This document shows, in pieces, positions 45 through 32,403 of a DNA stretch of 32,551 bases. The notes below the pieces were generated by a model. It worked only from the letters and a program-made list of their open reading frames with translations. It had not been told where the DNA came from and did not search any database. Origin of the DNA: a virus. Each line of letters opens with the position of its first letter. The first letter of the stretch is position 1. The stretch is from positions 1 through 32,551 of the IMG/VR virus record IMGVR_UViG_3300025141_010569; one strand, given 5' to 3'. The translations under genes and the position numbers were made by a program.

Positions 45-723
45 AGGGTAAACGCTCAGAACCGCCCCATTCTACCCCATAACGGCCCACCAGCGGCAGC
101 CCAGGCCATCGTTGACGCGCTGCCTTCATCCACGCCTTGAGCTTGCGCAAGCCACCAGGCAGAGCGCCAGAGCACCTCTGCTGTCCGGTGCGCTTTGTCT
201 TGCGCCAGACAGGCCCACGGTTCACGCGGATCCATGCGACGACCCACGGCCGCCGCACCTTGCCGCAGCGCCGACGGAGGCCGCGCTTCGACTTCACGAT
301 CTGCCCCAGATACACAGCGGCAGCGCTGATCGGGTCACGCCTATCGGCACCGGCACGCTCTGCCCATGGCCACAGCTGAAACCATCCCACCGCCTTGGCC
401 ACGTTCAACCCTTCGAGGTCAACGCGCCAGTCGCCCAAGGCATCAGACGTGCAGCGTGACTCACGGCAGGCAGTGGCAGCCAGGGCACCAGTCATAAACG
501 ACGGCACACCGGCAGCCCGCTCCATGGCCAGCCATGCGCTAACCACGTCAGCCGGACAGCCACAGCCAAGCGCCATCTCGATGATGACCTCGTCAGCGCT
601 TGGCGTCTCGCACCGTGCGCAAGCAGCGAACACAAACACCAGCACCAGCGACAGCACCAGCACCGTAGCAAAGCGTGCCACCTTGCGCTCTGTCTCGGCT
701 GCCCTATATCGCCAATCATTCAC
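31..723 (-). CDS. Lysozyme/transglycosylase-like protein with N-terminal membrane or signal segment
   Basis: Probably cleaves peptidoglycan from the periplasmic side during entry or lysis. A GTG start at 723 gives 230 aa, preceded by AGAGG at good spacing; the frame is open further upstream, but that part overlaps the methyltransferase gene. Residues 15-36 form one hydrophobic stretch (VARFATVLVL onward, ending FAAC), which could be a signal anchor, a SAR-type segment or a lipoprotein signal. Around residues 78-91 lies a TGALAATACRESRC stretch with a candidate catalytic Glu88, followed by AVGWFQL, as in SLT-type lytic transglycosylases. The C-terminal third is very basic. It is the last gene of the leftward block and overlaps its upstream neighbour by 8 bases. 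The fold is inferred from motifs only. Confidence 0.6.
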   Translation of the reverse strand: MNDWRYRAAETERKVARFATVLVLSLVLVFVFAACARCETPSADEVIIEMALGCGCPADVVSAWLAMERAAGVPSFMTGALAATACRESRCTSDALGDWRVDLEGLNVAKAVGWFQLWPWAERAGADRRDPISAAAVYLGQIVKSKRGLRRRCGKVRRPWVVAWIRVNRGPVWRKTKRTGQQRCSGALPGGLRKLKAWMKAARQRWPGLPLVGRYGVEWGGSERLPSPPH

Positions 724-1351
724 ACGCCACCTCTGCGAATAGGCCAAGCTGCGCACCTTCGAGTCCAAGCATTCCGCGCCACTGCTCGATCTCCGCATCG
801 CTTGGCGTGCCTCTATCACACCACACCACACGGGTCACAGGTTGCGCCCGTGGCAGCCAGATGGCCCAGCAGTGTGACGAGGTATCCGCCTTGCCGTCAC
901 CAGTGAACGACACACGCCCACGCAGCCAGAGCAGCACGTCAGGCTTGAGGTCACTTCGCACACCCTCACCCCACCAAGTCACACGGGTGAGCATGGCGCC
1001 AACCACACCATGGCGGCGTGCGTGCGCCTCGATGCGCACCGCGAACGCTTCAAGCTCCCTGCCGTATGGCGGGTTAGCGATGACGTGTAACCGTGGCCAC
1101 ACACGTGTCAAGGCGTTGCCCGTCATCACGCTGCGCACCTGGCTGACTGCATACAGGTCATCAGCGAACTGCGGCAGCATCTCGATAGCAACCCACGGGT
1201 GACCGTCACCCAGCCAGAGCGGCAGAGCACCGCGACCGGCGCACGGGTCGAGCATGGACGCTGATGGTTCGATGACGTCCCGCAGGTAGGACCGCAGCGG
1301 GATCACCGCTTCCGGTGGTGTTGGGTAGTATTGGGTTGGGTTGTCGCTCAT
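716..1351 (-). CDS. DNA adenine-type methyltransferase with NPPY motif
   Basis: A 211-aa SAM-dependent DNA methyltransferase-like protein. Motif I is DPCAGRGAL at residues 35-43 and the catalytic motif IV is NPPYGRE at 93-99. The order SAM site then NPPY fits gamma-type N6-adenine enzymes. It is short, with no obvious separate target-recognition domain. Downstream comes GAMLTRVTWW and a C-terminal region of unknown role. The start overlaps the stop of the zinc-ribbon/HTH gene by ATGA. It is one of three methyltransferase genes in this genome and likely protects phage DNA from host restriction. The target sequence cannot be read from the protein. Confidence 0.75.
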   Translation of the reverse strand: MSDNPTQYYPTPPEAVIPLRSYLRDVIEPSASMLDPCAGRGALPLWLGDGHPWVAIEMLPQFADDLYAVSQVRSVMTGNALTRVWPRLHVIANPPYGRELEAFAVRIEAHARRHGVVGAMLTRVTWWGEGVRSDLKPDVLLWLRGRVSFTGDGKADTSSHCWAIWLPRAQPVTRVVWCDRGTPSDAEIEQWRGMLGLEGAQLGLFAEVACE

Positions 1352-2666: not shown

Positions 2667-4040
2667 CTATCTGCCTCCCGGTGGTGTCTCGTAAGCCATG
2701 CGGGCACCGTTCCACCTCACATCACCTTCGCGCACAGTGAACGGCGGGCCGTGTCTGAACTTGGGCACGCCTATGGTGGCTCGCTGCTTCTCAGAGCGGA
2801 TCCGCGCCTTGGCTGCCTCACTGTTGGGCATGATGTCAGGATCCATGTTTGGCCGGTGCGGTATCAGCGCCACGTCAGCGTCAGCGGCAATAGCCTGGCT
2901 GCCCTTGGCATCGCTCAAGCGTAAGGCCTTGCCGCTGCCTCTCGTCGCTGATGCGGTGGGCTGGCTCACGGCAATGGCAGCGGTATCAAACTCGATGGCG
3001 CACGCTTTCATCATGCCAGAGGCCAGGGCGAACTCTGCCTCGTCCGTTGCGTCTTTGCGCCCGGTGAGGCCACGGCATTTCTGGATGTAGTCCAAGACGA
3101 TGAGCCCAAGGTCACCACGCTCGTGGATCACCCGCTGACAACTGAGCCGCAGTGACTGCGGGCTCAACCCGTCTGTGCGCTCGATGTGCAGAGGCCACCG
3201 GGCTGACTCGTCATGCGCCACGGTATAGCGCTCAAGGTCTCGACGGCCCAGCTGGGCCAACCCCTTGCGCGCCAGGTTGAACGGCACGCCACTGGCCAGG
3301 GTATTGAGCCGCCCGGCCAAGTCTGCCTTGCTCATCTCAAGCGAGACAAAGAGCACGGGCCGACCAGCACGCAAGGCGTTGAGGGTGTAACAGAGCGCCA
3401 GCGCTGTCTTGCCCATGGCGGGCGCAGCGAGCACCACAGCCAGCCAGCCGGGGTGTATCGTCATCTGCTCGTCGAGCTTTGCGATCCCGCTGCGGATCCC
3501 TCCTGACTTCTCCTCACCCGCTAGACACCGCCTGTGGTGCTCTGCAAAGCCCGTCAGCGCATTTTCAGCGCTCACAGGTACCAGCACCTCAGTTGCACCC
3601 CTGACGGCCTTCTCGGCCATCTCAGGCAGGTCTGACGGGTCTAGGTCTGTGTCACGTGCCATGGCTGTCAAAGTGTCGGCAGCGGCAAGCAACTCACGGC
3701 GCCCACGGTACTGCCTGACGATCTGGGCATAGGCGTCGACGTGGCGCGTCATGCCTGCCCTGTTCATCACCTCCGATATGCCCTTGTAGCCCACCAGCTC
3801 AAAGGTGCTGGCCGCGTTGAGGTACGCAACGATCAGGGCCTCATCGACGGTGCCGTGGTGCTCGTATGCTTTGACCACCGCTTCCCATAGAGCCCGGTGC
3901 CTGGCGACGTAAAAGTCATCAGGCTCCAGCAACTCAGCGATATGGGCACACTTCTCAGGGTGAACGATGGCAGCGCAGATGACCTCACGCTCTGTGTCAG
4001 GGTCATGCGGTGCGGTGAGGCTGGTGGTTGCCGTGTTCAT
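2667..4040 (-). CDS. dnaB: Replicative DNA helicase, DnaB family
   Basis: A 457-aa hexameric 5'-3' helicase expected to unwind the phage replication fork. The N-terminal domain (about 15-120) has the DnaB-like PDTEREVICAAIVHPEKC and DDFYVARHRALWEA segments. The RecA-like core carries Walker A APAMGKTA at 206-213, VLFVSLEMSKADLAGR at 229-244, Walker B LIVLDY at about 313-318 and the H3 region IAVSQPT near 357-362. The length matches the family. ATG 4040 overlaps the replisome-organiser stop by ATGA, so organiser and helicase are coupled, as with the lambda O/P and SPP1 gp38/gp40 type modules. Confidence 0.93.
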   Translation of the reverse strand: MNTATTSLTAPHDPDTEREVICAAIVHPEKCAHIAELLEPDDFYVARHRALWEAVVKAYEHHGTVDEALIVAYLNAASTFELVGYKGISEVMNRAGMTRHVDAYAQIVRQYRGRRELLAAADTLTAMARDTDLDPSDLPEMAEKAVRGATEVLVPVSAENALTGFAEHHRRCLAGEEKSGGIRSGIAKLDEQMTIHPGWLAVVLAAPAMGKTALALCYTLNALRAGRPVLFVSLEMSKADLAGRLNTLASGVPFNLARKGLAQLGRRDLERYTVAHDESARWPLHIERTDGLSPQSLRLSCQRVIHERGDLGLIVLDYIQKCRGLTGRKDATDEAEFALASGMMKACAIEFDTAAIAVSQPTASATRGSGKALRLSDAKGSQAIAADADVALIPHRPNMDPDIMPNSEAAKARIRSEKQRATIGVPKFRHGPPFTVREGDVRWNGARMAYETPPGGR

Positions 4041-4702: not shown

Positions 4703-5242
4703 TTAGAACGGAATGTCATCGTCACCGTACGGGTTGCCCTGCGGCGCAAGCGTTGCCTGCGCGTACTGTGGCGGCGCTGTCTGGTGTCGCACGGGCTGCG
4801 GCTGCGGCACACGTGCCGGCGCAGTCTCAACCATGCCGCGCTCGTTGCCAGCGCTCTGCACCGGCTGCGCGTGCTGTGGCTGCGTGCCAGGGTCACGCCA
4901 GTAGCCCCGATCGCTCTTGGGCTGGTCTGCGGTGTCCTGGGCCGGTACGCCCAACTCTTTCACCACCACGCTGGTCCACTCGCGGCCCTCGTCGTCTTTG
5001 CGCTGCGACAGCTCACCGTTGATTTCAACGATCGTGCCCTGCTCAATGCGCTTGGCAGCCTCTGCGCCCCGGTCGCCAAACATCACGCACCGCGTGTACC
5101 CTTGGATCGTCTTGGGCTGCCCCGTCTGCCGGTCTTGGATCTGCTTACCATGCTTGATCTTGAACGACAGGAACGCGCCCGATCGGCCTTGCTTCATCTC
5201 CGGTGGGAACGCCACCGCACCACAGCCCCAGACTTTCAACAC
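4703..5242 (-). CDS. ssb: Single-stranded DNA-binding protein
   Basis: Coats single-stranded DNA during replication and recombination. The GTG start at 5242 follows GGAGG at seven bases and gives 179 aa. Residues 1-100 form the OB-fold (FLSFKIKHGKQ, CVMFGDRGAEAAKRIEQGTIVEINGELSQR, WTSVVVKEL). There follows a long Gln/Pro-rich linker, and the acidic tip DDDIPF, the standard SSB protein-interaction tail. It is the first gene of the leftward replication block and starts about 35 bases from a palindromic operator-like site. Divergently placed exonuclease and RecT genes suggest that it works with that recombination pair. Confidence 0.95.
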   Translation of the reverse strand: MLKVWGCGAVAFPPEMKQGRSGAFLSFKIKHGKQIQDRQTGQPKTIQGYTRCVMFGDRGAEAAKRIEQGTIVEINGELSQRKDDEGREWTSVVVKELGVPAQDTADQPKSDRGYWRDPGTQPQHAQPVQSAGNERGMVETAPARVPQPQPVRHQTAPPQYAQATLAPQGNPYGDDDIPF

Positions 5243-5277
5243 GTGTGCACCTCCATGCCTCCGCACCGTGACGCATC

Positions 5278-5292
5278 AACGCACAACGCGTC
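5278..5292. promoter_or_regulatory. Operator-like palindrome, site 1 (divergent early promoter)
   Basis: Read on the minus strand this is GACGC-GTTGT-GCGTT. It matches the sites at 7863, 9966 and 9989 (consensus GACGC-KKTGY-GCGTC). It lies in the 110-bp gap between SSB and the rightward block, just upstream of a rightward -35 at 5300 and overlapping a leftward TTGACG at 5294-5289. Another TGACGC half-site is at 5269-5274. Confidence 0.6.
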
Positions 5293-5299
5293 AAGCAAG

Positions 5300-5328
5300 T
5301 TGACCAAGATCGGCGCAGAGGCTACAAG
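5300..5328 (+). promoter_or_regulatory. Sigma70-like promoter for the rightward recombination operon
   Basis: TTGACC (5300-5305), a 17-base spacer and TACAAG (5323-5328) are close to the consensus. They lie 25 bases upstream of the first rightward start codon at 5353, next to operator-like site 1. The promoter is predicted by pattern only. Confidence 0.55.
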
Positions 5329-5352
5329 ATCCACAGGCAACGAGGAGACCTA

Positions 5353-5484
5353 ATGCGACGACGATCCCCTAGATTCATCCTATTGGCCGGGCAACTGTTC
5401 AGCGATCTGCCCTTGATCCGTGAAGCGCTGGCCCGCTTTGGCCCTGGCGCGAAGGTCACAGACCTTGCGAGGTGCAGCCCGTGA
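5353..5484 (+). CDS. Very small leader gene of the rightward operon (43 aa)
   Basis: A 43-aa reading frame that is easily missed. ATG 5353 is preceded by GAGGAG at six bases, and its TGA stop forms GTGA with the next gene's GTG start. The product begins with an arginine cluster (MRRRSPRF) followed by an amphipathic helix (LLAGQLFSDLPLIREALARF). I recognise no family. Strong ribosome site plus coupling argue that it is translated; it may be a small regulator or inhibitor, or simply a coupling leader. Confidence 0.6.
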   Translation: MRRRSPRFILLAGQLFSDLPLIREALARFGPGAKVTDLARCSP

Positions 5485-5765
5485 GCGGTGGCGAACGCCT
5501 GACGGTTGCAGCGCTTGACGTGCTGGTGGGCAGGCTGCGGGGTGTGGCCATGCGCCTCACCAATGCGGGCGCAGACGATGACGCTGCCGCCGTGGGGCGG
5601 GCTGCGAACACCCTTGATCACCTGTCGCTGCGATACGTGATCCATGACCCTGAGCCAGCCGGGGGTACATCCCGGCCAAACCGGGGGTACATGGTGACCA
5701 AACCGGGGGTACATTCCTGCTGTAACTCACTGAGTGCGGGCGCAGACGACGAGGCAACACAATGA
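5481..5765 (+). CDS. Small hypothetical protein whose 3' end carries 22-bp tandem repeats
   Basis: A 94-aa protein from GTG 5481 (GCGAGG ribosome site). The N-terminal half (about 5-55) is helical and Leu/Ala-rich (LTVAALDVLVGRLRGVAMRL). The C-terminal part is encoded by three 22-bp DNA repeats and looks unstructured. Two in-frame copies of a 15-bp sequence (5564-5578 and 5735-5749, encoding AGADD) flank that part, as if a 171-bp segment had been duplicated or inserted. The stop overlaps the exonuclease start by ATGA. The function is unknown; its operon partners are recombination genes. Confidence 0.6.
   Translation: MSGGERLTVAALDVLVGRLRGVAMRLTNAGADDDAAAVGRAANTLDHLSLRYVIHDPEPAGGTSRPNRGYMVTKPGVHSCCNSLSAGADDEATQ
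5659..5714. repeat. Three tandem 22-bp repeats (iteron-like)
   Basis: The core CCGGGGGTACAT begins at 5659, 5681 and 5703, a spacing of exactly 22 bases. The intervening bases end in G-N-CCAAA in the first two units. Because 22 is not a multiple of three, each copy is read in a different frame, so conservation acts at the DNA level. A period of two helical turns suits cooperative protein binding. Confidence 0.7.
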
Positions 5766-6736
5766 CAGACGCAGAGCGGGCCGAATGGCTCAAGGGTCGC
5801 AAGACCTCGATCGGCGCTAGTGACGTGGGTGGCCTGCTTGGCCTCGCGGATCCTCGATGGTCAACGCCACTGAGCGTTTGGGAGTCGAAGATCTCAGACG
5901 AGGTTGACCCAACCGTCAGCGGTCCGGCCGCCATGGGCCTCGACCTTGAGCCCTACATCTTGGCGGCGCTCGCTGACCGTCTCAAGACTGAGGTGTACGA
6001 TGCCAGCGCAGAGCCGATCCGGCATCCCACGGTGCCGCTGGCCGTCAACCCTGACGCAATGGTCAAAGACCCTGAGACCGGTGAATGGTGCCCGTGTGAA
6101 GTCAAGTTCGCCACCGGGGATCAGCTGTCATCGTGGACGCTCGATCCCGCGCTAGGCTGGAACATGCTCCGATCGTGGCTCGCTGGTGGTGCTGACTTTC
6201 CGGCGCAGACCGTCATAGGCGGGTACTATTGCCAGATCCAAGCACAGATCCTCTGCACCGGCGCACCATACGGCTGGCTCGTGGGCGTGATCGGCGCTCG
6301 TGCCGGGTACATGCTGCGGCTGGGATACCCGGTGCCATCGCAGGCATGGCGGCAGATGAGGATAGAGCCCGATCCCGAAATGCACCGCACCATTGAGACG
6401 GCATGCGCTCGGTTCTGGGCTGACTACGTTGAGACACGGCAGCCGCCACCCACAGCCGGCAAGGCAGACCTTCGAGCGCTCAAGCGTGCGTACTGGCAGC
6501 ACACCAGCGGCAAGAAAATCGAGCGCCCTGACGGTGAGCCGTTTGCGCAAGCGCTTGAGGCATCCCGGCAAGCCATCAAGGCGCAAGAGACAGCCAAAGA
6601 CGAGGCAGAGGCCTGGCTACGTCGCATGCTAGGTGACGCGCAGACGGCAACCTGTGGCGAGTACAGGGTATCAGCCAAGACCACAAAGACAGGCAGCCGC
6701 CCGGTGAGGGTTGCCAAGATCAAGGCCAAGACATGA
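5762..6736 (+). CDS. YqaJ/lambda-exonuclease-type recombination nuclease
   Basis: A 324-aa 5'-3' double-strand DNA exonuclease that would produce the single strands used by the RecT partner. Family motifs are in order: GASDVGGLLGL at 18-28, MGLDLEPYI at 58-66 with Glu63, NPDAMV with Asp98, CEVKFA with Glu113 and Lys115 (the D-ExK metal site), and YYCQIQAQI at 155-163 with the conserved Gln. The C-terminal 80 residues are helical and basic. ATG 5762 overlaps the previous stop, and the stop overlaps recT by ATGA, so the pair should be made together. Confidence 0.9.
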   Translation: MTDAERAEWLKGRKTSIGASDVGGLLGLADPRWSTPLSVWESKISDEVDPTVSGPAAMGLDLEPYILAALADRLKTEVYDASAEPIRHPTVPLAVNPDAMVKDPETGEWCPCEVKFATGDQLSSWTLDPALGWNMLRSWLAGGADFPAQTVIGGYYCQIQAQILCTGAPYGWLVGVIGARAGYMLRLGYPVPSQAWRQMRIEPDPEMHRTIETACARFWADYVETRQPPPTAGKADLRALKRAYWQHTSGKKIERPDGEPFAQALEASRQAIKAQETAKDEAEAWLRRMLGDAQTATCGEYRVSAKTTKTGSRPVRVAKIKAKT

Positions 6737-7494
6737 GCAACGAGATCAGCATCACAGATTATATGCAACGCGGTGGCTGGCGGCAGCGGGTCAACGGTGC
6801 GCTGATGGGCGTGATGTCATGCGAAGCGTTTAACGCTGGCTGCCTCGCTGCCCTGGCCGATCCAAAGCTGCGGCAGTGCTCCGCCGAATCTCTTGGGCGT
6901 GCCTTTCTGACGTGTGCGTCCATGGGTCTTATGCCCGGCCCGCAGCAACTCGTGAGCCTGATCCCGCGTGGCGGGCAGGTCACCGTCATGCTTGGCTGGC
7001 GTGGCATTGCGTGTCTCTTTGCCCGGCTGCCGCAGGTTGCGCAGGTGTCTGCGGTGCTGGTGCACATCGACGACCCTTTGACCGTCGAGCCATTCCACCA
7101 CGAGCCGCACCCATACGATCGGGAGGTCACGAGCCCCGACAACTGCCGGGGCGGATACCTGCGGATCGAGTACACAGACGGGCGGACCACACGCCACCAC
7201 GTCAGCATCAGGAAGATCCTTGAGAACCGCAAAGCGGCGGGCAACTCAAGCGTCTGGCGCACCTACTTTGCGCCCATGGCGCTCAAGACCGTCTACCGTG
7301 ACGCGTGGGCACGGGCTGCCGTGGCCTTCGAGCCTGGCGCCCCACCGGCGCAGCACATCCTTAACGCTGAACTCCACGAGCGTGAGGCCAATGACGAGAA
7401 CCCGGCACGGGTGTCCGCGCCGAAACCGCAGAGCCCTGCCGCTGCGGCCATCTCGTATGATAAAAGAGAGCGGGCTGGTGACTCGTTGCCCTAG
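6733..7494 (+). CDS. recT: RecT-family single-strand annealing protein
   Basis: A 253-aa annealing recombinase partner of the exonuclease. The central signature runs from RAFLTCASMGLMPGPQQ through LIPRGGQVTVMLGWRG, LFARLP and, later, VWRTYFAPMALKTVYRDAWARA. These match the conserved RecT core (GL.P, IP...V, GWRG, M..KT..R). The C-terminus is a disordered Ala/Pro/Lys tail. It is coupled to the upstream exonuclease by a 4-base overlap and followed at once by a bidirectional terminator. It probably serves recombination-dependent replication and repair, and may drive mosaic exchange at the repeated elements near 9 kb. Confidence 0.9.
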   Translation: MSNEISITDYMQRGGWRQRVNGALMGVMSCEAFNAGCLAALADPKLRQCSAESLGRAFLTCASMGLMPGPQQLVSLIPRGGQVTVMLGWRGIACLFARLPQVAQVSAVLVHIDDPLTVEPFHHEPHPYDREVTSPDNCRGGYLRIEYTDGRTTRHHVSIRKILENRKAAGNSSVWRTYFAPMALKTVYRDAWARAAVAFEPGAPPAQHILNAELHEREANDENPARVSAPKPQSPAAAAISYDKRERAGDSLP

Positions 7495-7523
7495 CTAGTC
7501 GCCCCAGACCAGCCCGTAGCGGC

Positions 7524-7561
7524 GGGTGACGGGCTCGATTGATCGATCGGGCCCGTCACCC
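7524..7561. terminator. Strong bidirectional terminator between convergent units
   Basis: GGGTGACGGGC (7524-7534) pairs perfectly with GCCCGTCACCC (7551-7561). The 16-base middle section can itself fold (CGAT/ATCG). It lies just after recT and in front of the end of the leftward HTH gene. The stem is long and all-canonical but has no T run, so its strength is inferred from the stem. Confidence 0.7.
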
Positions 7562-7572
7562 TAGCCCTGGCG

Positions 7573-7620
7573 CAACAAAGCCCGCCCAGGCGGTGGCCGG
7601 CGGGCTGGTGGCTTTGCAGC
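7573..7620. repeat. Intergenic hairpin element R1 (diverged copy)
   Basis: A diverged relative of the repeated hairpin at 8824, 9203 and 9605: AAAGCCCGCC pairs with GGCGGGCT, followed by GGTGGCTTT. It sits at the 3' end of the HTH gene and back to back with the recT terminator, so it probably terminates the leftward accessory strip. Confidence 0.6.
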
Positions 7621-7635
7621 GATTAGGATCGGGCT

Positions 7636-7836
7636 CTAGTGCTTGTCCCGCCACCGCGATGCCATCGAGGCCACCAGCGTGCGTGCATCGAGGTCCGGCA
7701 GGGCTCTGAGCAGGTGATCCAGCTCGTTGATATTGGGCGACCGCAGACCGGTCAGCCAGTTGCTCACCCTTCGAGGTGACACGGTCACCAGCATGCGGTC
7801 AACGATGCTGGCCGGTTTTAGTGTGTTGCGATCCAT
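7636..7836 (-). CDS. Small Cro/XRE-like helix-turn-helix regulator (66 aa)
   Basis: ATG 7836 lies eight bases after GGGAGG, giving 66 aa; a GTG three codons upstream is possible. Residues 17-34 (VTVSPRRVSNWLTGLRSP) form a helix-turn-helix with the Asn-Trp-Leu-x-Gly-x-x-x-Pro pattern of Cro/XRE proteins, followed by helices NELDHLLRALPDLDART. The gene is alone between an operator-like palindrome (7863-7877) and terminator R1. It is the best candidate in the window to bind the four related palindromes and so repress itself, the replication/recombination promoter and the accessory strip. DNA binding is inferred. Confidence 0.7.
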   Translation of the reverse strand: MDRNTLKPASIVDRMLVTVSPRRVSNWLTGLRSPNINELDHLLRALPDLDARTLVASMASRWRDKH

Positions 7837-7862
7837 TGTGCTCACCTCCCTGGTGACCCTAC

Positions 7863-7877
7863 CACGCGTTGCGCGTC
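7863..7877. promoter_or_regulatory. Operator-like palindrome, site 2 (in front of HTH gene)
   Basis: CACGC-GTTGC-GCGTC on the plus strand, related to sites at 5278, 9966 and 9989 in both arms and spacer. It lies 27 bases upstream of the HTH start codon, in the short gap after the cysteine-cluster gene, which would allow autoregulation. Confidence 0.55.
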
Positions 7878-7887
7878 ACTAGCAGCC

Positions 7888-8322
7888 TCAAACACCTAGT
7901 GGCCACTCGAAGCCCGCAGCCACCCACGAGCGCGCCGCAGCGTTGAGCGTGAGGTGACCGTCAGGCAGACGCAGAAACGCGGGCATTGGCCCGATCTGCG
8001 CCAGCACACGCGCCAAGAGCCCAGGACCACGCCCAAGGGTTGCCGCGCCTGGCCTGGCCTCGTGCACCACCACAAACGGGCGATCGGCAACATCCTCGAC
8101 AAGCCAGACCACCAGCCCGGTTCGATCGGGCCGATCTTTGTTGGCGCCTACACCAAGCAACCACTGACACCGCGCACTAGAGCAAGGCGCTGGCCTGTCT
8201 GCGTAGATGGCGCACCCGCCATGCTTGCGCTGGTGCTGGCAATCCGACCAGCCGGCTGACCCGGTCTCAGGTATCGCAAGCACGTGGCAGCACGTAGAGC
8301 ATGGCCCGCAGCGGCGTGGCAT
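7888..8322 (-). CDS. YkgJ-like cysteine-cluster protein (CxxCxxCC)
   Basis: A 144-aa protein with ATG 8322 placed by a TAATG overlap with the upstream stop. It has the family signature C5-x2-C8-x2-C11-C12, then C28, GCAIYADRPAPC (C37 to C47) and C52-Q-W, the pattern of the YkgJ/UPF0153 zinc- or iron-binding family. The rest carries a hydrophobic sheet region (VVWLVEDVADRPFVVVH) and a helix. The biochemical role of this family is not established. In phages it occurs as an accessory gene; here it follows two other Cys-containing small proteins. Confidence 0.72.
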   Translation of the reverse strand: MPRRCGPCSTCCHVLAIPETGSAGWSDCQHQRKHGGCAIYADRPAPCSSARCQWLLGVGANKDRPDRTGLVVWLVEDVADRPFVVVHEARPGAATLGRGPGLLARVLAQIGPMPAFLRLPDGHLTLNAAARSWVAAGFEWPLGV

Positions 8323-8552
8323 TACTCGCACCCCCGAAAATCACACGCGTCATGCAACTCATCAAGGGCCTCAGCGATCCGTCCGGCTGCCCTGTGAAAC
8401 CATACAAAGCCCTGCGCGCCTCGCTCGCTCGTCGGTGCGTCCATCCTGATGTTGGCAGCGTGCAACAGCCGCCCGCAGTCACTGAGCAACTCAGCCACAC
8501 GCAGCGACCGGCAGCGCTCGCACCGTGCGTTATCGCAGTAGATGGCCGCCAT
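8322..8552 (-). CDS. Small Cys-containing hypothetical protein (76 aa)
   Basis: ATG 8552 overlaps the upstream stop (TGATG) and is preceded by GAGGTGGGG. The N-terminus has C6-x4-C11-x2-C14 followed by RSLR, possibly a small zinc site. The remainder is helical (LRVAELLSDCGRLLHAAN, AAGRIAEALDELHDACD), and two further Cys lie in the last ten residues. No family is recognised. Tight overlaps on both sides put it in one unit with the cysteine-cluster gene. Confidence 0.62.
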   Translation of the reverse strand: MAAIYCDNARCERCRSLRVAELLSDCGRLLHAANIRMDAPTSERGAQGFVWFHRAAGRIAEALDELHDACDFRGCE

Positions 8553-8785
8553 CACCCCACCTCAACATCACGGTCGCGAAACGGCAGCACCAGCCGCACG
8601 GCCCATGACGTCATGGCGTCTGTGCGCCCGCACTCATCGCATGCCTCGTCATCGTCGCTCACGAGTTCAAGCCATGCGCCCCGCGTATCGATGCCAAACT
8701 CGCGCCCGATCAGCGTGGACAGGGCCTCGGCTGTGATCTGGTACTGCCGGTGCTCTGACACCTTCAACTTGGCCTTGCTGCTCAT
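8552..8785 (-). CDS. Small hypothetical protein with CxxC (77 aa)
   Basis: ATG 8785 follows a GGTGAGAGG leader of the same type as the neighbouring cassettes. The N-terminal half (MSSKAKLKVSEHRQYQITAE) precedes a helix ALSTLIGREFGI. A CDEC pair sits in an acidic loop (DDDEACDECGR), and the C-terminus is a strand (SWAVRLVLPFRDRDVEV). I do not recognise it. It follows hairpin element R2, so it starts the last accessory unit before the HTH gene. Confidence 0.6.
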   Translation of the reverse strand: MSSKAKLKVSEHRQYQITAEALSTLIGREFGIDTRGAWLELVSDDDEACDECGRTDAMTSWAVRLVLPFRDRDVEVG

Positions 8786-8823
8786 CCTCTCACCCCGCTT
8801 GAACCCGTCGCCCCATGCGCCGG

Positions 8824-8874
8824 CACCCAGAAAGCCCGCTCAGGCAGTGCCTGGCGGGCTGGTGGGCTTGGTGG
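8824..8874. repeat. Intergenic hairpin/leader element R2
   Basis: A 51-bp copy of the cassette joint. It differs from R3 and R4 at a few bases in the hairpin, with the stem kept (AGCCCGCTCAGGC pairs with GCCTGGCGGGCT). It lies between the 94-aa and 77-aa genes. Confidence 0.75.
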
Positions 8875-8882
8875 TGGTGTGG

Positions 8883-9167
8883 CTAGTAGCCGCAGTTGTC
8901 GATCTTGAACAGTGCGCGGATCCGGTCGAGTTGGATCCACTTCTCAGCCAGCACCGCGTCAATGTCTGCGTCAGTCAATGTCGGGATCTGCATCTGCGTG
9001 CCGTACTCGTCCTCGTACCAGCCCTCACTGTCTGCAACGTCATTGAAGATATCTATCACCACGTCGTTGCCCGTGGGCGCCGTTCCGTTGAACAGCGCTG
9101 CAACGCGGGCCAGCGTCTTGACCCGGCTGCGGCTCAGTTGCGTGGTGGTCTTGGTCTGCCCTTCCAT
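8883..9167 (-). CDS. Accessory cassette gene, hypothetical (94 aa)
   Basis: ATG 9167 is preceded by GGGAGTGAGACG; the frame is open to 9197, but that part is the repeated leader. The N-terminus is basic (LSRSRVKTLARVAALFNG) and helical. The middle and C-terminus are acidic (DVVIDIFNDVADSEGWYEDEYG, LTDADIDAVLAEKW). No family is recognised. Flanked by repeat elements R3 upstream and R2 downstream, it forms a self-contained cassette. Confidence 0.62.
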   Translation of the reverse strand: MEGQTKTTTQLSRSRVKTLARVAALFNGTAPTGNDVVIDIFNDVADSEGWYEDEYGTQMQIPTLTDADIDAVLAEKWIQLDRIRALFKIDNCGY

Positions 9168-9202
9168 CGTCTCACTCCCTAGCCGCCCCAGCGGCAACCT
9201 GT

Positions 9203-9256
9203 TTGCACCCAGAAAGCCCGCACAGGCTAGGCCTGGCGGGCTGGTGGGCTTGGTGG
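9203..9256. repeat. Intergenic hairpin/leader element R3
   Basis: Fifty-four bases identical to R4 (9605-9658). The hairpin is AGCCCGC-A-CAGGC, loop TAG, then GCCTG-GCGGGCT (9215-9242): 12 pairs with one bulged A. The similarity continues at the left into a GCCGC/GCGGC mini-hairpin and the ribosome site of the following leftward gene. It works as the end of one gene and the leader of the next. Confidence 0.85.
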
Positions 9257-9266
9257 CGCCTGCGCG

Positions 9267-9569
9267 CTATGCGCGCCACACGCCATCGTGGCCCGGCTCG
9301 CGGTGGCACGCGTCATGGTGATCCCACTCGTCAACACCCTCTGCGATCAAGTGGGCTGCCGCCTGCTCATCGTCCAGCAGCATAAAGCGGGCGCACTCTG
9401 CGTCGCTCATACAGTAAGCCAACGCGCCCCCGTCCATCATGCGATCCATCCGGCGGGCTGTGAGCCACAAGAGGTGGCACCAGTCGATCTTGCGACCGCG
9501 AAGCCGCTGGCCCGTGTGGAAAGCCTGCACAATGGCCTCTCGCTCAGTCTGTGTAGTGCCGTCGCTCAT
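9267..9569 (-). CDS. Accessory cassette gene, hypothetical (100 aa)
   Basis: ATG 9569 follows GGGAGTTGAGAGG at good spacing. The protein is helical and rich in Asp, His, Met and Cys (TEREAIVQAFHTGQRLRGRK, MSDAECARFMLLDDEQAAAHL, DEWDHHDACHREPGH). The His/Cys-rich C-terminus might bind metal. No family is recognised. It lies between R4 and R3 and shares their leader, as the other cassettes do. Confidence 0.62.
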   Translation of the reverse strand: MSDGTTQTEREAIVQAFHTGQRLRGRKIDWCHLLWLTARRMDRMMDGGALAYCMSDAECARFMLLDDEQAAAHLIAEGVDEWDHHDACHREPGHDGVWRA

Positions 9570-9604
9570 CCTCTCAACTCCCTGCCGCCCCAGCGGCATC
9601 ATGG

Positions 9605-9658
9605 TTGCACCCAGAAAGCCCGCACAGGCTAGGCCTGGCGGGCTGGTGGGCTTGGTGG
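9605..9658. repeat. Intergenic hairpin/leader element R4
   Basis: Identical to R3 over 54 bases, with further similarity upstream at the mini-hairpin and ribosome site. It ends the 82-aa gene and leads into the 100-aa gene. Confidence 0.85.
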
Positions 9659-9667
9659 GTGGTGCGG

Positions 9668-9916
9668 CTAGAACGGGCGACCGCAGGGCATGAGGCCAGC
9701 CCGCAAGAATGACAGCCGCTCACACTCATCCTGCCAGCCGTCAGACCACGCCTGCTCTGCTGCGTCCCTGTCCGCGCATGGTGGGCAGAATCGCCCAAAC
9801 AGGCGCCGCCATGCCGCGTGATCGTGTCGCCCGTCATGCTTGATCCCTAGCCCCTTGCGGCGGCACCTTGCGCCGTCGTCATAGGCTGCTACCTCAATGC
9901 GGCCCTGCCGTGTCAT
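9668..9916 (-). CDS. First accessory cassette gene, Cys-containing hypothetical (82 aa)
   Basis: ATG 9916 is preceded by GGAGGCGAGACG. The protein has Cys at RCRRKG, a FCPPCADRDAAEQAWSDGWQDEC stretch and a C-terminal PCGRPF. The C-P-(x)n-W-x-x-GW-x-x pattern faintly recalls ribosome modulation factor-like small proteins, but this is weak. It is the first gene of the accessory strip, behind a promoter region with two operator-like palindromes. Confidence 0.58.
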   Translation of the reverse strand: MTRQGRIEVAAYDDGARCRRKGLGIKHDGRHDHAAWRRLFGRFCPPCADRDAAEQAWSDGWQDECERLSFLRAGLMPCGRPF

Positions 9917-9952
9917 CGTCTCGCCTCCGGTGTGGTTCTTTCCCATGTCCAA

Positions 9953-9982
9953 AGACTAAGCGAACGACGCACACCGCGTCAA
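9953..9982 (-). promoter_or_regulatory. Candidate leftward promoter of the accessory strip
   Basis: On the minus strand, TTGACG (9982-9977) and TAGTCT (9958-9953) are separated by 18 bases, about 40 bases before ATG 9916. The -35 lies inside operator-like site 3a, so bound protein would block polymerase. The -10 is only a partial match. Confidence 0.4.
9966..9980. promoter_or_regulatory. Operator-like palindrome, site 3a
   Basis: GACGC-ACACC-GCGTC has perfect 5-bp arms. On the minus strand the spacer is GGTGT. Its centre is 24 bases from that of site 3b, and it overlaps the candidate -35 of the accessory strip. Confidence 0.65.
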
Positions 9983-9988
9983 CGTACA

Positions 9989-10005
9989 TGACGCACAAAG
10001 CGTCA
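9989..10005. promoter_or_regulatory. Operator-like palindrome, site 3b
   Basis: TGACGCACAAAGCGTCA has perfect 6-bp arms around a 5-base spacer, the most symmetric of the four sites. Paired with site 3a, it suggests cooperative binding upstream of the accessory strip. Confidence 0.65.
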
Positions 10006-10250: not shown

Positions 10251-10437
10251 CGATAAACACCCGATCGGCTCTGAGCTTTGCCAGGGTCTCAGCCAACTTC
10301 ACGATCCCGATCGCACCTATGGCGTCGGCCGCGTCATCGAACCGCAGATCACCGGACATCTTGCCCAGGCTACGCAGGAAGCCGGGCACGAGGCTGGCCC
10401 ATTCGGCTGCGTCTTTTCCGTCGTCACTCAGAGCCAT
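10198..10437 (-). CDS. Small hypothetical protein (79 aa)
   Basis: ATG 10437 lies inside the last codons of the methyltransferase (14-base overlap); the ribosome site is weak, and a TTG at 10473 behind GGAAAGG is an alternative. The protein is helical in the first 60 residues (DDGKDAAEWASLVPGFLRSLGKMSG, IGIVKLAETLAKLRADRVF) and ends with an acidic strand region (DEGEITIGPGVDVEIEP). No family is recognised. Confidence 0.58.
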   Translation of the reverse strand: MALSDDGKDAAEWASLVPGFLRSLGKMSGDLRFDDAADAIGAIGIVKLAETLAKLRADRVFIDEGEITIGPGVDVEIEP

Positions 10438-11065
10438 GACAGGCCCCGGGTAGCCAAAAGGGATCGCAATCAAAGCCTTTCCAGGAGTGGCCCAAAGACA
10501 GCGACGCGGGTCGGCTCGCGCCGCTTCCGCAGAAGGGATCGACGACTAATCCGGTCGGGATGCGTTGCAAGATATGGGACCAAAGCGCGACCGGCTTCTC
10601 GTAAGGATGCGAGCGCTTCGACGGGCATTCAGCGTTGACCCAATTTCTAATCGCGGCGCGGTCGATAGCGAGAGGGGTCCCCTTCGCGAAGATCAAGACC
10701 GGATCCCAGGCTCCGCGGAATAGCCCACCCGTCCCCGGGCGGTTACGTGTCCACGCGATGGTGGTCGCGAGACGCAGACCGGACGTCGATCCGAGATAGG
10801 CGACATCCGGAAAGCGGCGCCAGTCACAAACGACCGCAGCGATCCCGCCATCGCGGAGGATGCGTCTCGTCTCGCGTAGCGTCTCGACGAATAGACGGTA
10901 GGGACTTCCGCTCGTCCCCGCTGCTCCGTCGTCTCGACCTCTCACGGAGTTAGGTGTCATCGAATAAGGAGGATCCAAGATCACACAAGCGACCGAGCTC
11001 GATTCGATCGTCGCCAGCCAATCGGGGGCCGACAACGGGTGAAGCAGGTCGAGCGCAGTCGCCAT
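10424..11065 (-). CDS. Beta-class DNA methyltransferase (DPPY...DPFCGSG)
   Basis: A 213-aa amino-methyltransferase, the third in this genome. Motif IV DPPY is at 31-34, and the SAM motif DPFCGSG is at 176-182 near the C-terminus, giving beta-class order. SHPYEKPVALWSHIL and LRETRRILRDGGIAAVVCDWRR match the family core. It is compact, with little room for a separate target domain. ATG 11065 (GAGGG, six bases) is preferred over GTG 11068, which forms GTGA with the upstream stop. Codon use in this and the next two upstream genes differs from the endolysin, suggesting separate acquisition. Confidence 0.85.
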   Translation of the reverse strand: MATALDLLHPLSAPDWLATIESSSVACVILDPPYSMTPNSVRGRDDGAAGTSGSPYRLFVETLRETRRILRDGGIAAVVCDWRRFPDVAYLGSTSGLRLATTIAWTRNRPGTGGLFRGAWDPVLIFAKGTPLAIDRAAIRNWVNAECPSKRSHPYEKPVALWSHILQRIPTGLVVDPFCGSGASRPASLSLGHSWKGFDCDPFWLPGACHGSE

Positions 11066-11538
11066 CACTTACCCTCGCAGAGAGCCGCGCGGACCTTCGG
11101 GCCGACCTTCAACGGGTCCGCGTCCTTGATACAGATAATCGAGACCTCCGGATCCCCGTCTCCGTAGACGGTGAGCTTGGTTCCACAGTCCGCCTTCTCG
11201 AGCGACCATCCGCCCGACTTCAGATGATAGTTCGCTCCGCACCCTCCGAAGGTCATGATCAGGAGGATACCGAGCGCGCCGACCAGGGGGATCAACGCGA
11301 CGGCGGCGAACCCCTTCTCCTCCGACGGGGGATTCTCGTCGGGTGCTGGAGCGAGGGATCGGTTCACGAACCGGATCGCCGCCATCGCGAGAGGGAGGAG
11401 GACCGCGGTCGCCATCGCGCCGACGACCTCCGGCGTGAGCTCATAGTGTCCGCCAAAATGCATGAGCAACGCGACGACTCCGGAGAGCCACGTACCGACC
11501 TCGGCCGGGTCTGCGATCTTCGAGTGTATCTTCTTCAT
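11065..11538 (-). CDS. Membrane protein of the lysis block, holin or spanin candidate (157 aa)
   Basis: Three hydrophobic segments are visible: about 15-32 (VGTWLSGVVALLMHFGG), 39-59 (VVGAMATAVLLPLAMAAIRFV) and 76-98 (GFAAVALIPLVGALGILLIMT). The third ends in FGGCGANYH, which resembles a lipobox-like Cys. A soluble Cys-containing tail follows. Position two genes after the endolysin suggests a holin or a spanin-like component; the family is not recognised. Val is encoded by GTC in 12 of 13 cases, unlike the neighbouring endolysin. ATG 11538 overlaps the 44-aa gene stop by ATGA. Confidence 0.6.
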   Translation of the reverse strand: MKKIHSKIADPAEVGTWLSGVVALLMHFGGHYELTPEVVGAMATAVLLPLAMAAIRFVNRSLAPAPDENPPSEEKGFAAVALIPLVGALGILLIMTFGGCGANYHLKSGGWSLEKADCGTKLTVYGDGDPEVSIICIKDADPLKVGPKVRAALCEGK

Positions 11539-31972: not shown

Positions 31973-32403
31973 TCGTCTGCCTCCAGCAACTTGGCCCGGT
32001 GCTCGATGTACCTGACCCGCTGGTCAGCCTCAGCGCGTGCGACCTCGGCGCGTGCTTGCGCTGCCATCAGTTCCGCACGCTTGCCGGGATCCATGAACTC
32101 AGCTGGCGCACGTCGCGTCAATAGCCAGGTGGCTGCGCGCCAGTCTTTGACCCCGGCATCTGACACGCGGCTGACAAGCTCTGCCACGCTTTCTGCCTCT
32201 GCGCGTGTGACGTCATTGCAGAAGTTGCGATATATGCCGCGCCTTTGTTCGCGACCCTTGGCCAGCCATCGCGAAACGGTAGCAGGGTCAATACCCACGC
32301 ACGCGGCGGCACAACTGATCGGGATGCCCTGCCGGACAAAGTCAACGATCGCCTTGCGCCGCGCCGGCGTGCACTTGCTGCGACGTGTCCGCCCGTCAGC
32401 CAT
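31969..32403 (-). CDS. terS: Terminase small subunit
   Basis: A 144-aa DNA-recognition subunit. An N-terminal HTH (IPISCAAACVGIDPATVSRWLAKG, 27-50) follows a basic start, then GIYRNFCNDVTRAEAESVAELVSRV and DWRAATWLLTRRAPAEFM. These are typical of small terminases of the helix-turn-helix class. The C-terminal Ala/Arg/Glu helix is a likely oligomerisation segment. ATG 32403 is the first start of the leftward late block, next to non-coding direct repeats that it may bind. Confidence 0.82.
   Translation of the reverse strand: MADGRTRRSKCTPARRKAIVDFVRQGIPISCAAACVGIDPATVSRWLAKGREQRRGIYRNFCNDVTRAEAESVAELVSRVSDAGVKDWRAATWLLTRRAPAEFMDPGKRAELMAAQARAEVARAEADQRVRYIEHRAKLLEADD

Follow-up and report, generated by a model that had tools for sequence, protein, structure and literature searches.

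The IMG/VR record IMGVR_UViG_3300025141_010569, a stretch of 32,551 nt from an uncultured virus of bacteria (hereafter the window, taken at its full length), carries four short palindromes that are likely operators of a repressor encoded by the phage itself. The sites are dispersed across 4.7 kb, with one or two in each gap concerned. The first (5278-5292, minus strand, GACGCGTTGTGCGTT) lies in the divergent gap between the gene of a single-strand DNA-binding protein (SSB; 4703-5242, minus strand, PHROG 44, GTG start likely at 5242), which is the first gene of a leftward replication block, and the rightward genes of a RecE-like exonuclease (5762-6736, plus strand, PHROG 434) and a RecT-like annealing protein (6733-7494, plus strand, PHROG 148). 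The second (7863-7877, plus strand, CACGCGTTGCGCGTC) is upstream of the gene of a 66-amino-acid XRE/HTH_3-like helix-turn-helix (HTH) protein (7636-7836, minus strand), the probable binder. The remaining two are a proximal site (9966-9980, minus strand, GACGCGGTGTGCGTC) and a distal one (9990-10004, minus strand, GACGCTTTGTGCGTC; TGACGC-N5-GCGTCA across 9989-10005) at the promoter of a cassette strip, a series of small leftward genes (7888-9916, minus strand) that fills the stretch between this operator pair and the HTH gene. The arms of each palindrome are 10 bp apart, that is, one helical turn. A sequence-only reading of the window had placed four such sites in non-coding DNA and described the 66-amino-acid HTH gene; both observations were confirmed. 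None of the four sites touches a coding base, and non-coding DNA makes up 4.4% of the window in our gene list.

The pattern GACGC-KKTGY-GCGTC, with at most one mismatch, has these four matches in the entire record and no others. In 500 first-order (dinucleotide-based) shuffles, the mean number of matches was 0.15 and the maximum 2, and four were never reached; exact matches were two, against 0.002 expected. So that the result would not hinge on a post hoc choice of pattern, every one of the 1,024 possible 5-bp arms was also tried with a 5-bp spacer. In non-coding DNA, GACGC ranks first (four sites), followed by CCAGG, a hairpin repeat (three sites). With leave-one-out matrices, each held-out site came 4th of 32,537, right after its three training sites, and the weight-matrix scan that the sequence-only reading had proposed found no equally good sites inside genes. 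The arms alone (GACGC-N5-GCGTC, up to two mismatches) are not enriched, with 48 occurrences versus 45 by chance; it is therefore the stricter sites, where they lie and how they are conserved, that carry the claim.

Conservation could be followed in a relative, G002 (IMGVR_UViG_3300027847_001471, 32,869 bp), which was reached through comparisons of the exonuclease, RecT and DnaB. Its two ends share an overlap of 164 bp that contains two mismatches, suggesting that it is a complete, circularly permuted genome. Two further fragments, G001 and G003, belong with G002, and G003 ends before the operator region. Gene order is common to the window and G002 almost throughout; protein identity to the relatives is 73% for RecT and 68% for the exonuclease, both values holding for G002, where DnaB is 68% and SSB 52% identical. 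We scanned G002 (∼32,850 positions) with a symmetric matrix of 15 columns that drew solely on the four sites of the window. The top four positions were 32078 and 3478 (18.7 bits each), 5384 (15.3 bits) and 1612 (13.0 bits), and the fifth (11.7 bits) is unconnected with the promoters discussed here. One of these four falls between SSB and the exonuclease, two belong to the duplicated cassette promoter and the last precedes the HTH homologue; we estimate that these gaps amount to ∼1.3% of the G002 genome. Only 0.7% of column-permuted matrices attained the G002 maximum. The idea of a single operator family at three promoter regions therefore holds in the relative, which has kept both the HTH gene and the sites. 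The SSB/exonuclease site has its counterpart at 32078-32092 in the same register, the HTH-gene site a weaker one at 1612-1626 and the proximal cassette site two, at 3478-3492 and 5360-5374. Sequence comparison places the counterparts of the distal cassette site at 5384-5398 (24 bp) and, in degenerate form, at 3503-3517 (25 bp), so that the tandem sites are spaced by 24 bp centre to centre in the window and by 24 and 25 bp in G002.

The conservation does not extend to every part of the site. Conserved arms and a conserved asymmetric spacer had been reported for the window; the asymmetry is indeed present among the window sites, but it is not kept in G002, where the two best sites (GACGCGCWGCGCGTC) are palindromic except for the central base. 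In the reverse test, a matrix from the strong G002 sites gave its highest window scores to 7863 and 9966, with 5278 fifth and 9990 seventh, which indicates that the spacer preference has drifted between the two phages. When viral contigs were scanned for exact copies of TTGACGCNNTGYGCGTC, the matches listed numbered one per stretch, the G002 contig being included, and no repeated set of sites was seen outside the group of the window phage and G002 among these matches. The other single-match stretches were taken as chance. For the four window sites themselves, chance palindromes in a GC-rich genome would fit the frequency of the arms alone, which with up to two mismatches are as common as in shuffles; with four sites observed against 0.15 expected, all non-coding and in the same places in the relative, we consider this explanation extremely improbable.

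The sites are in register with promoter hexamers, which, like the start sites, are readings of sequence and alignment. The probable SSB promoter (5265-5294, minus strand; TTGACG-N18-CACGGT, with a weak -10) has its -35 hexamer TTGACG at 5289-5294 and reads TTGACG-N18-CAGGGT in G002. The probable cassette promoter (9953-9982, minus strand; TTGACG-N18-TAGTCT) has its -35 hexamer TTGACG at 9977-9982, and its two G002 counterparts are TTGACG-N17-TACTGT and TTTACA-N17-TACTGT. At both promoters the candidate operators cover the -35 hexamer and the spacer, in agreement with the overlap of sites and TTGACG hexamers that the sequence-only reading had pointed out. Read on the opposite strand, the outer arm of the SSB/exonuclease site supplies the -35 hexamer TTGACG for the SSB promoter; in G002, TTGACG lies inside the site at the SSB promoter and at one cassette promoter. 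At the probable promoter of the HTH gene (7856-7884, minus strand), the site is located between a weak -35-like hexamer (TGCTAG, 7879-7884) and a -10-like hexamer (TAGGGT, 7856-7861), in the window and G002 alike. This register, together with the dispersal of the sites and their presence upstream of the HTH gene and of accessory cassettes that are not homologous, argues against a role in replication or recombination, for example as iterons, initiator-binding sites or an origin; the proximity of the sites to SSB, replication and recombination genes would suit such a role, which we nevertheless regard as very unlikely.

The site shared with the exonuclease differs in position. The probable exonuclease/RecT promoter (5300-5328, plus strand; TTGACC-N17-TACAAG) has both hexamers identical in G002, and the gap of 7 bp that separates it from the site is identical in both phages, with AAGSAAG directly after the site. 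The SSB leader side has diverged between the phages while the exonuclease-side hexamers are unchanged. We estimate the centre of the site at approximately -27 relative to the likely start on the SSB side and at approximately -50 relative to that on the exonuclease side, and a site near -50 could do nothing, hinder or activate transcription of exonuclease/RecT. In the manner of lambda CI acting at OR2, or of the controller proteins of restriction-modification (R-M) systems, the HTH protein might have a dual function and repress SSB, its own gene and the cassettes while activating exonuclease/RecT, and possibly the cassettes, from around -50. The unequal estimated distances of the single SSB/exonuclease site from its two promoters, the invariant 7-bp gap and the similar upstream distance of the distal cassette sites would all suit such a regulator. 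However, TTGACC-N17-TACAAG is near consensus and may need no activator, the start sites are guessed from hexamers, and constraint on back-to-back promoters alone could preserve the spacing, so that we see activation as unlikely.

We propose the 66-amino-acid HTH protein as the likely binder because it is the only XRE/lambda-repressor-like protein found in both phages. A six-frame search with HTH_3 gave one match per phage, namely this protein or its homologue (G002:1400-1579, 60% identical). The homologue scores 33.7 bits against a cut-off of 23 (32.6 bits in the six-frame search), which assigns the pair to the XRE/HTH_3 family through the G002 member, and PRRVSNW, in the region of the recognition helix, is invariant between the two proteins. 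An AlphaFold model, made from two sequences, has four helices and a predicted local distance difference test score (pLDDT) of 85.8. Its VIA-align matches among XRE repressors include P22 c2 (Z 5.8, root-mean-square deviation 2.2, 53 residues) and TP901-1 CI (Z 5.5), in each case starting at their residue 14-15, and the usual first helix of the XRE fold seems to be missing from the model. A search of the PDB by sequence returned one weak match to a DNA-recognition subunit, which was not used. Moreover, a candidate site is present in the promoter of the HTH gene in the window and, in weaker form, in G002. The sequence-only reading had already named this protein as the regulator of all four sites; the assignment is upheld by inference, from the sole HTH_3 match, the invariant PRRVSNW and the site at its own promoter.

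Two other proteins of the window were set aside as binders, namely a 99-amino-acid HTH_38 protein (1348-1647), the strongest competing candidate, which has no G002 homologue, and the terminase small subunit, which fits packaging. In G002, a neighbour of the repressor homologue is a protein of 161 amino acids (L012:1863-2348) that includes an HTH-like segment (EQFGRSLGVSEGCIRNWESG) and has no Pfam match, and no counterpart of it was seen in the window. The sites might be bound instead by a host regulator or another phage protein, whose control the phage would borrow, with the HTH gene merely one target among several. The role of the HTH protein as binder is, after all, one that we infer, and the 161-amino-acid protein adjoins the repressor homologue. 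Nonetheless, neither the HTH_38 protein nor the 161-amino-acid protein has a listed counterpart in the other phage, the two phages both have a site in the promoter of the HTH gene itself, as is typical of autoregulation, and the viral-contig scan listed single exact matches per stretch, with no repeated set outside the group. Such a binder therefore seems to us improbable, and slightly more so than activation by the HTH protein.

Judged from the sequences, the four palindromes are probably the operators of an XRE (lambda-repressor-like) repressor that the phage encodes and that regulates its own gene. A dimer of the 66-amino-acid protein would bind the 15-bp palindrome with one subunit on each GACGC arm. 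At its own promoter, binding between the -35-like and -10-like hexamers would result in negative autoregulation, whereas at the SSB and cassette promoters binding over the -35 hexamer and the spacer would silence both the leftward replication block and the strip of accessory genes. The second site, 24-25 bp further upstream, would provide tandem, probably cooperative, control of the cassettes.

Several observations weigh against this repressor model. The site at the HTH promoter of G002 is weak (rank 4 with the window matrix, rank 23 with the matrix of strong G002 sites); its 13.0 bits are not significant alone, being attained by 63% of shuffles, and it is credible because of its position. The window protein scores 16.2 bits with HTH_3, under the cut-off of 23, and the profile aligns to both homologues just from its position 13 or 21 onward, so that both seem to lack the first XRE helix. 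Support from Foldseek is weak, with 0.51 as its best E-value, and Z values in the range 5-6 may arise when an arrangement is simply common. The location of the shared site upstream of the exonuclease -35 does not require repression there, and the proposed repression of exonuclease/RecT is for this reason conjectural. Finally, the conservation rests in essence on two independent phages, as G001 and G003 belong with G002.

The group to which these phages belong appears isolated in the collections searched. None of 50,697 phage records matched the window at the nucleotide level, and the HTH protein had no match among named phages. Alignment of RecT and DnaB to viral contigs gave no others beyond the G002 group, including the G003 fragment, and G002 was the sole match of the HTH protein there. 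In genomes, DnaB had just relatives of 27-29% identity, in metagenome-assembled genomes of Actinomycetes, Chloroflexi and Clostridia; the HTH protein, searched in two of these, gave no match in one and E-values of 0.026 or worse in the other. In view of such distant DnaB relatives without a convincing HTH match, we do not call a host.

The cassette strip changes while its promoter does not. One of six cassette genes has homology in G002, and only partially, yet the promoter is kept in front of different genes; this indicates that the operator-promoter module is retained while the cargo changes. G002 contains two very similar copies of this module (L012:3425-3540 and 5306-5420) before different genes, and a SprT-like gene of 482 amino acids is found further downstream of one copy. 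Hairpins follow cassette genes in the window (8828-8872, 9210-9254 and 9612-9656) and another is present at 7575-7622; those of the relative are at L014:2374-2415, 2825-2866, ∼3147-3187 and ∼5024-5064. These hairpins are strong (∼-23 kcal/mol; z ∼-4 for the three cassette copies of the window), and a short T-rich stretch comes next. Recurring in both phages in the direction of transcription, these hairpins are probably intrinsic terminators or processing hairpins.

Immediately behind the exonuclease promoter, an unannotated open reading frame of 43 amino acids (5353-5484) is 55% identical to one in G002, which makes it a probable genuine early gene. Shortly before the exonuclease gene, CCGGGGGTACAT is repeated three times (5660-5715) in a region without a G002 homologue. 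Three putative DNA methyltransferases are encoded elsewhere in the window (716-1351, 1572-2510 and 10424-11068); a Dam-like one is common to G002, and two N6_N4 ones are without a homologue there.

A search for tyrosine and serine recombinases (PF00589 and PF00239) gave no match in the window or G002, and neither phage thus shows the integrase expected of an integrating temperate phage with a CI-type immunity repressor. Because no integrase was found, a Cro-type shut-off of early genes is probably the likelier role for the HTH protein than that of a lysogeny repressor of an integrating phage, although persistence in another form is conceivable. A broader scheme would combine an XRE repressor of ∼60 amino acids without helix 1, a dispersed early regulon in non-integrating phages, a shared operator that represses replication and activates recombination, and a module duplicated in the relative and capturing cassettes; taken as a whole, this scheme is doubtful. 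For a phage group without a nucleotide match among the phage records, the analysis provides a testable regulatory map comprising the probable binder, its sites and the gene blocks that it should control. Moreover, since accessory cassettes sit downstream of a conserved operator-promoter module, the expression timing of unknown genes becomes easier to predict.

Among known systems, the lambdoid CI/Cro regulators (lambda, P22 c2 and 434) combine XRE-type HTH domains with palindromes whose half-sites are one turn apart and with tandem operators ∼24 bp apart. The likeness extends to palindromes that overlap early promoters and the promoter of the regulator itself, and to the fold match with P22 c2. 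In contrast, the sites described here span three regions rather than one intergenic switch, the operator sequence differs, and the protein is a single domain of 60-66 amino acids that apparently lacks helix 1; neither a divergent cI/cro pair nor an integrase was found. An autoregulated repressor is suggested by the site at the own promoter and by related sites at other early promoters, kept in G002.

In the CI-MOR switch of TP901-1, CI acts with three operators (PMC7250872). The XRE N-terminal domain of CI resembles our protein, as the VIA-align match indicates; unlike in TP901-1, we identified neither a MOR partner nor an oligomerisation domain, and the sites are at replication and accessory promoters. 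The stoperators of cluster A mycobacteriophages are asymmetric 13-mers, bound by a monomer and numbering >20 per genome (PMC9283540). As in these phages, one repressor would act on sites at several places in the genome, in promoters and intergenic gaps, but the definition of stoperators does not cover the present case, in which the protein has a single domain and the sites are palindromes, four in number, located at promoters. A limited literature search found no paper on dispersed inverted repeats of the phiC31 type. The R-M controller protein C.Esp1396I offers a parallel to the proposed system, as one of the small XRE-type dimers with tandem operators, autoregulation and an operator that overlaps a -35 hexamer. 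C-boxes have GAC/GTC around a TATA spacer and adjoin R-M genes (PMC3758141). The present sites, with GACGC/GCGTC arms, a 5-bp spacer and phage replication and accessory targets, are distinct from C-boxes as defined. The regulatory principle is classical, and the present set differs in the sequence and symmetry of its operators, in its spread over replication and accessory genes and in its minimal protein.

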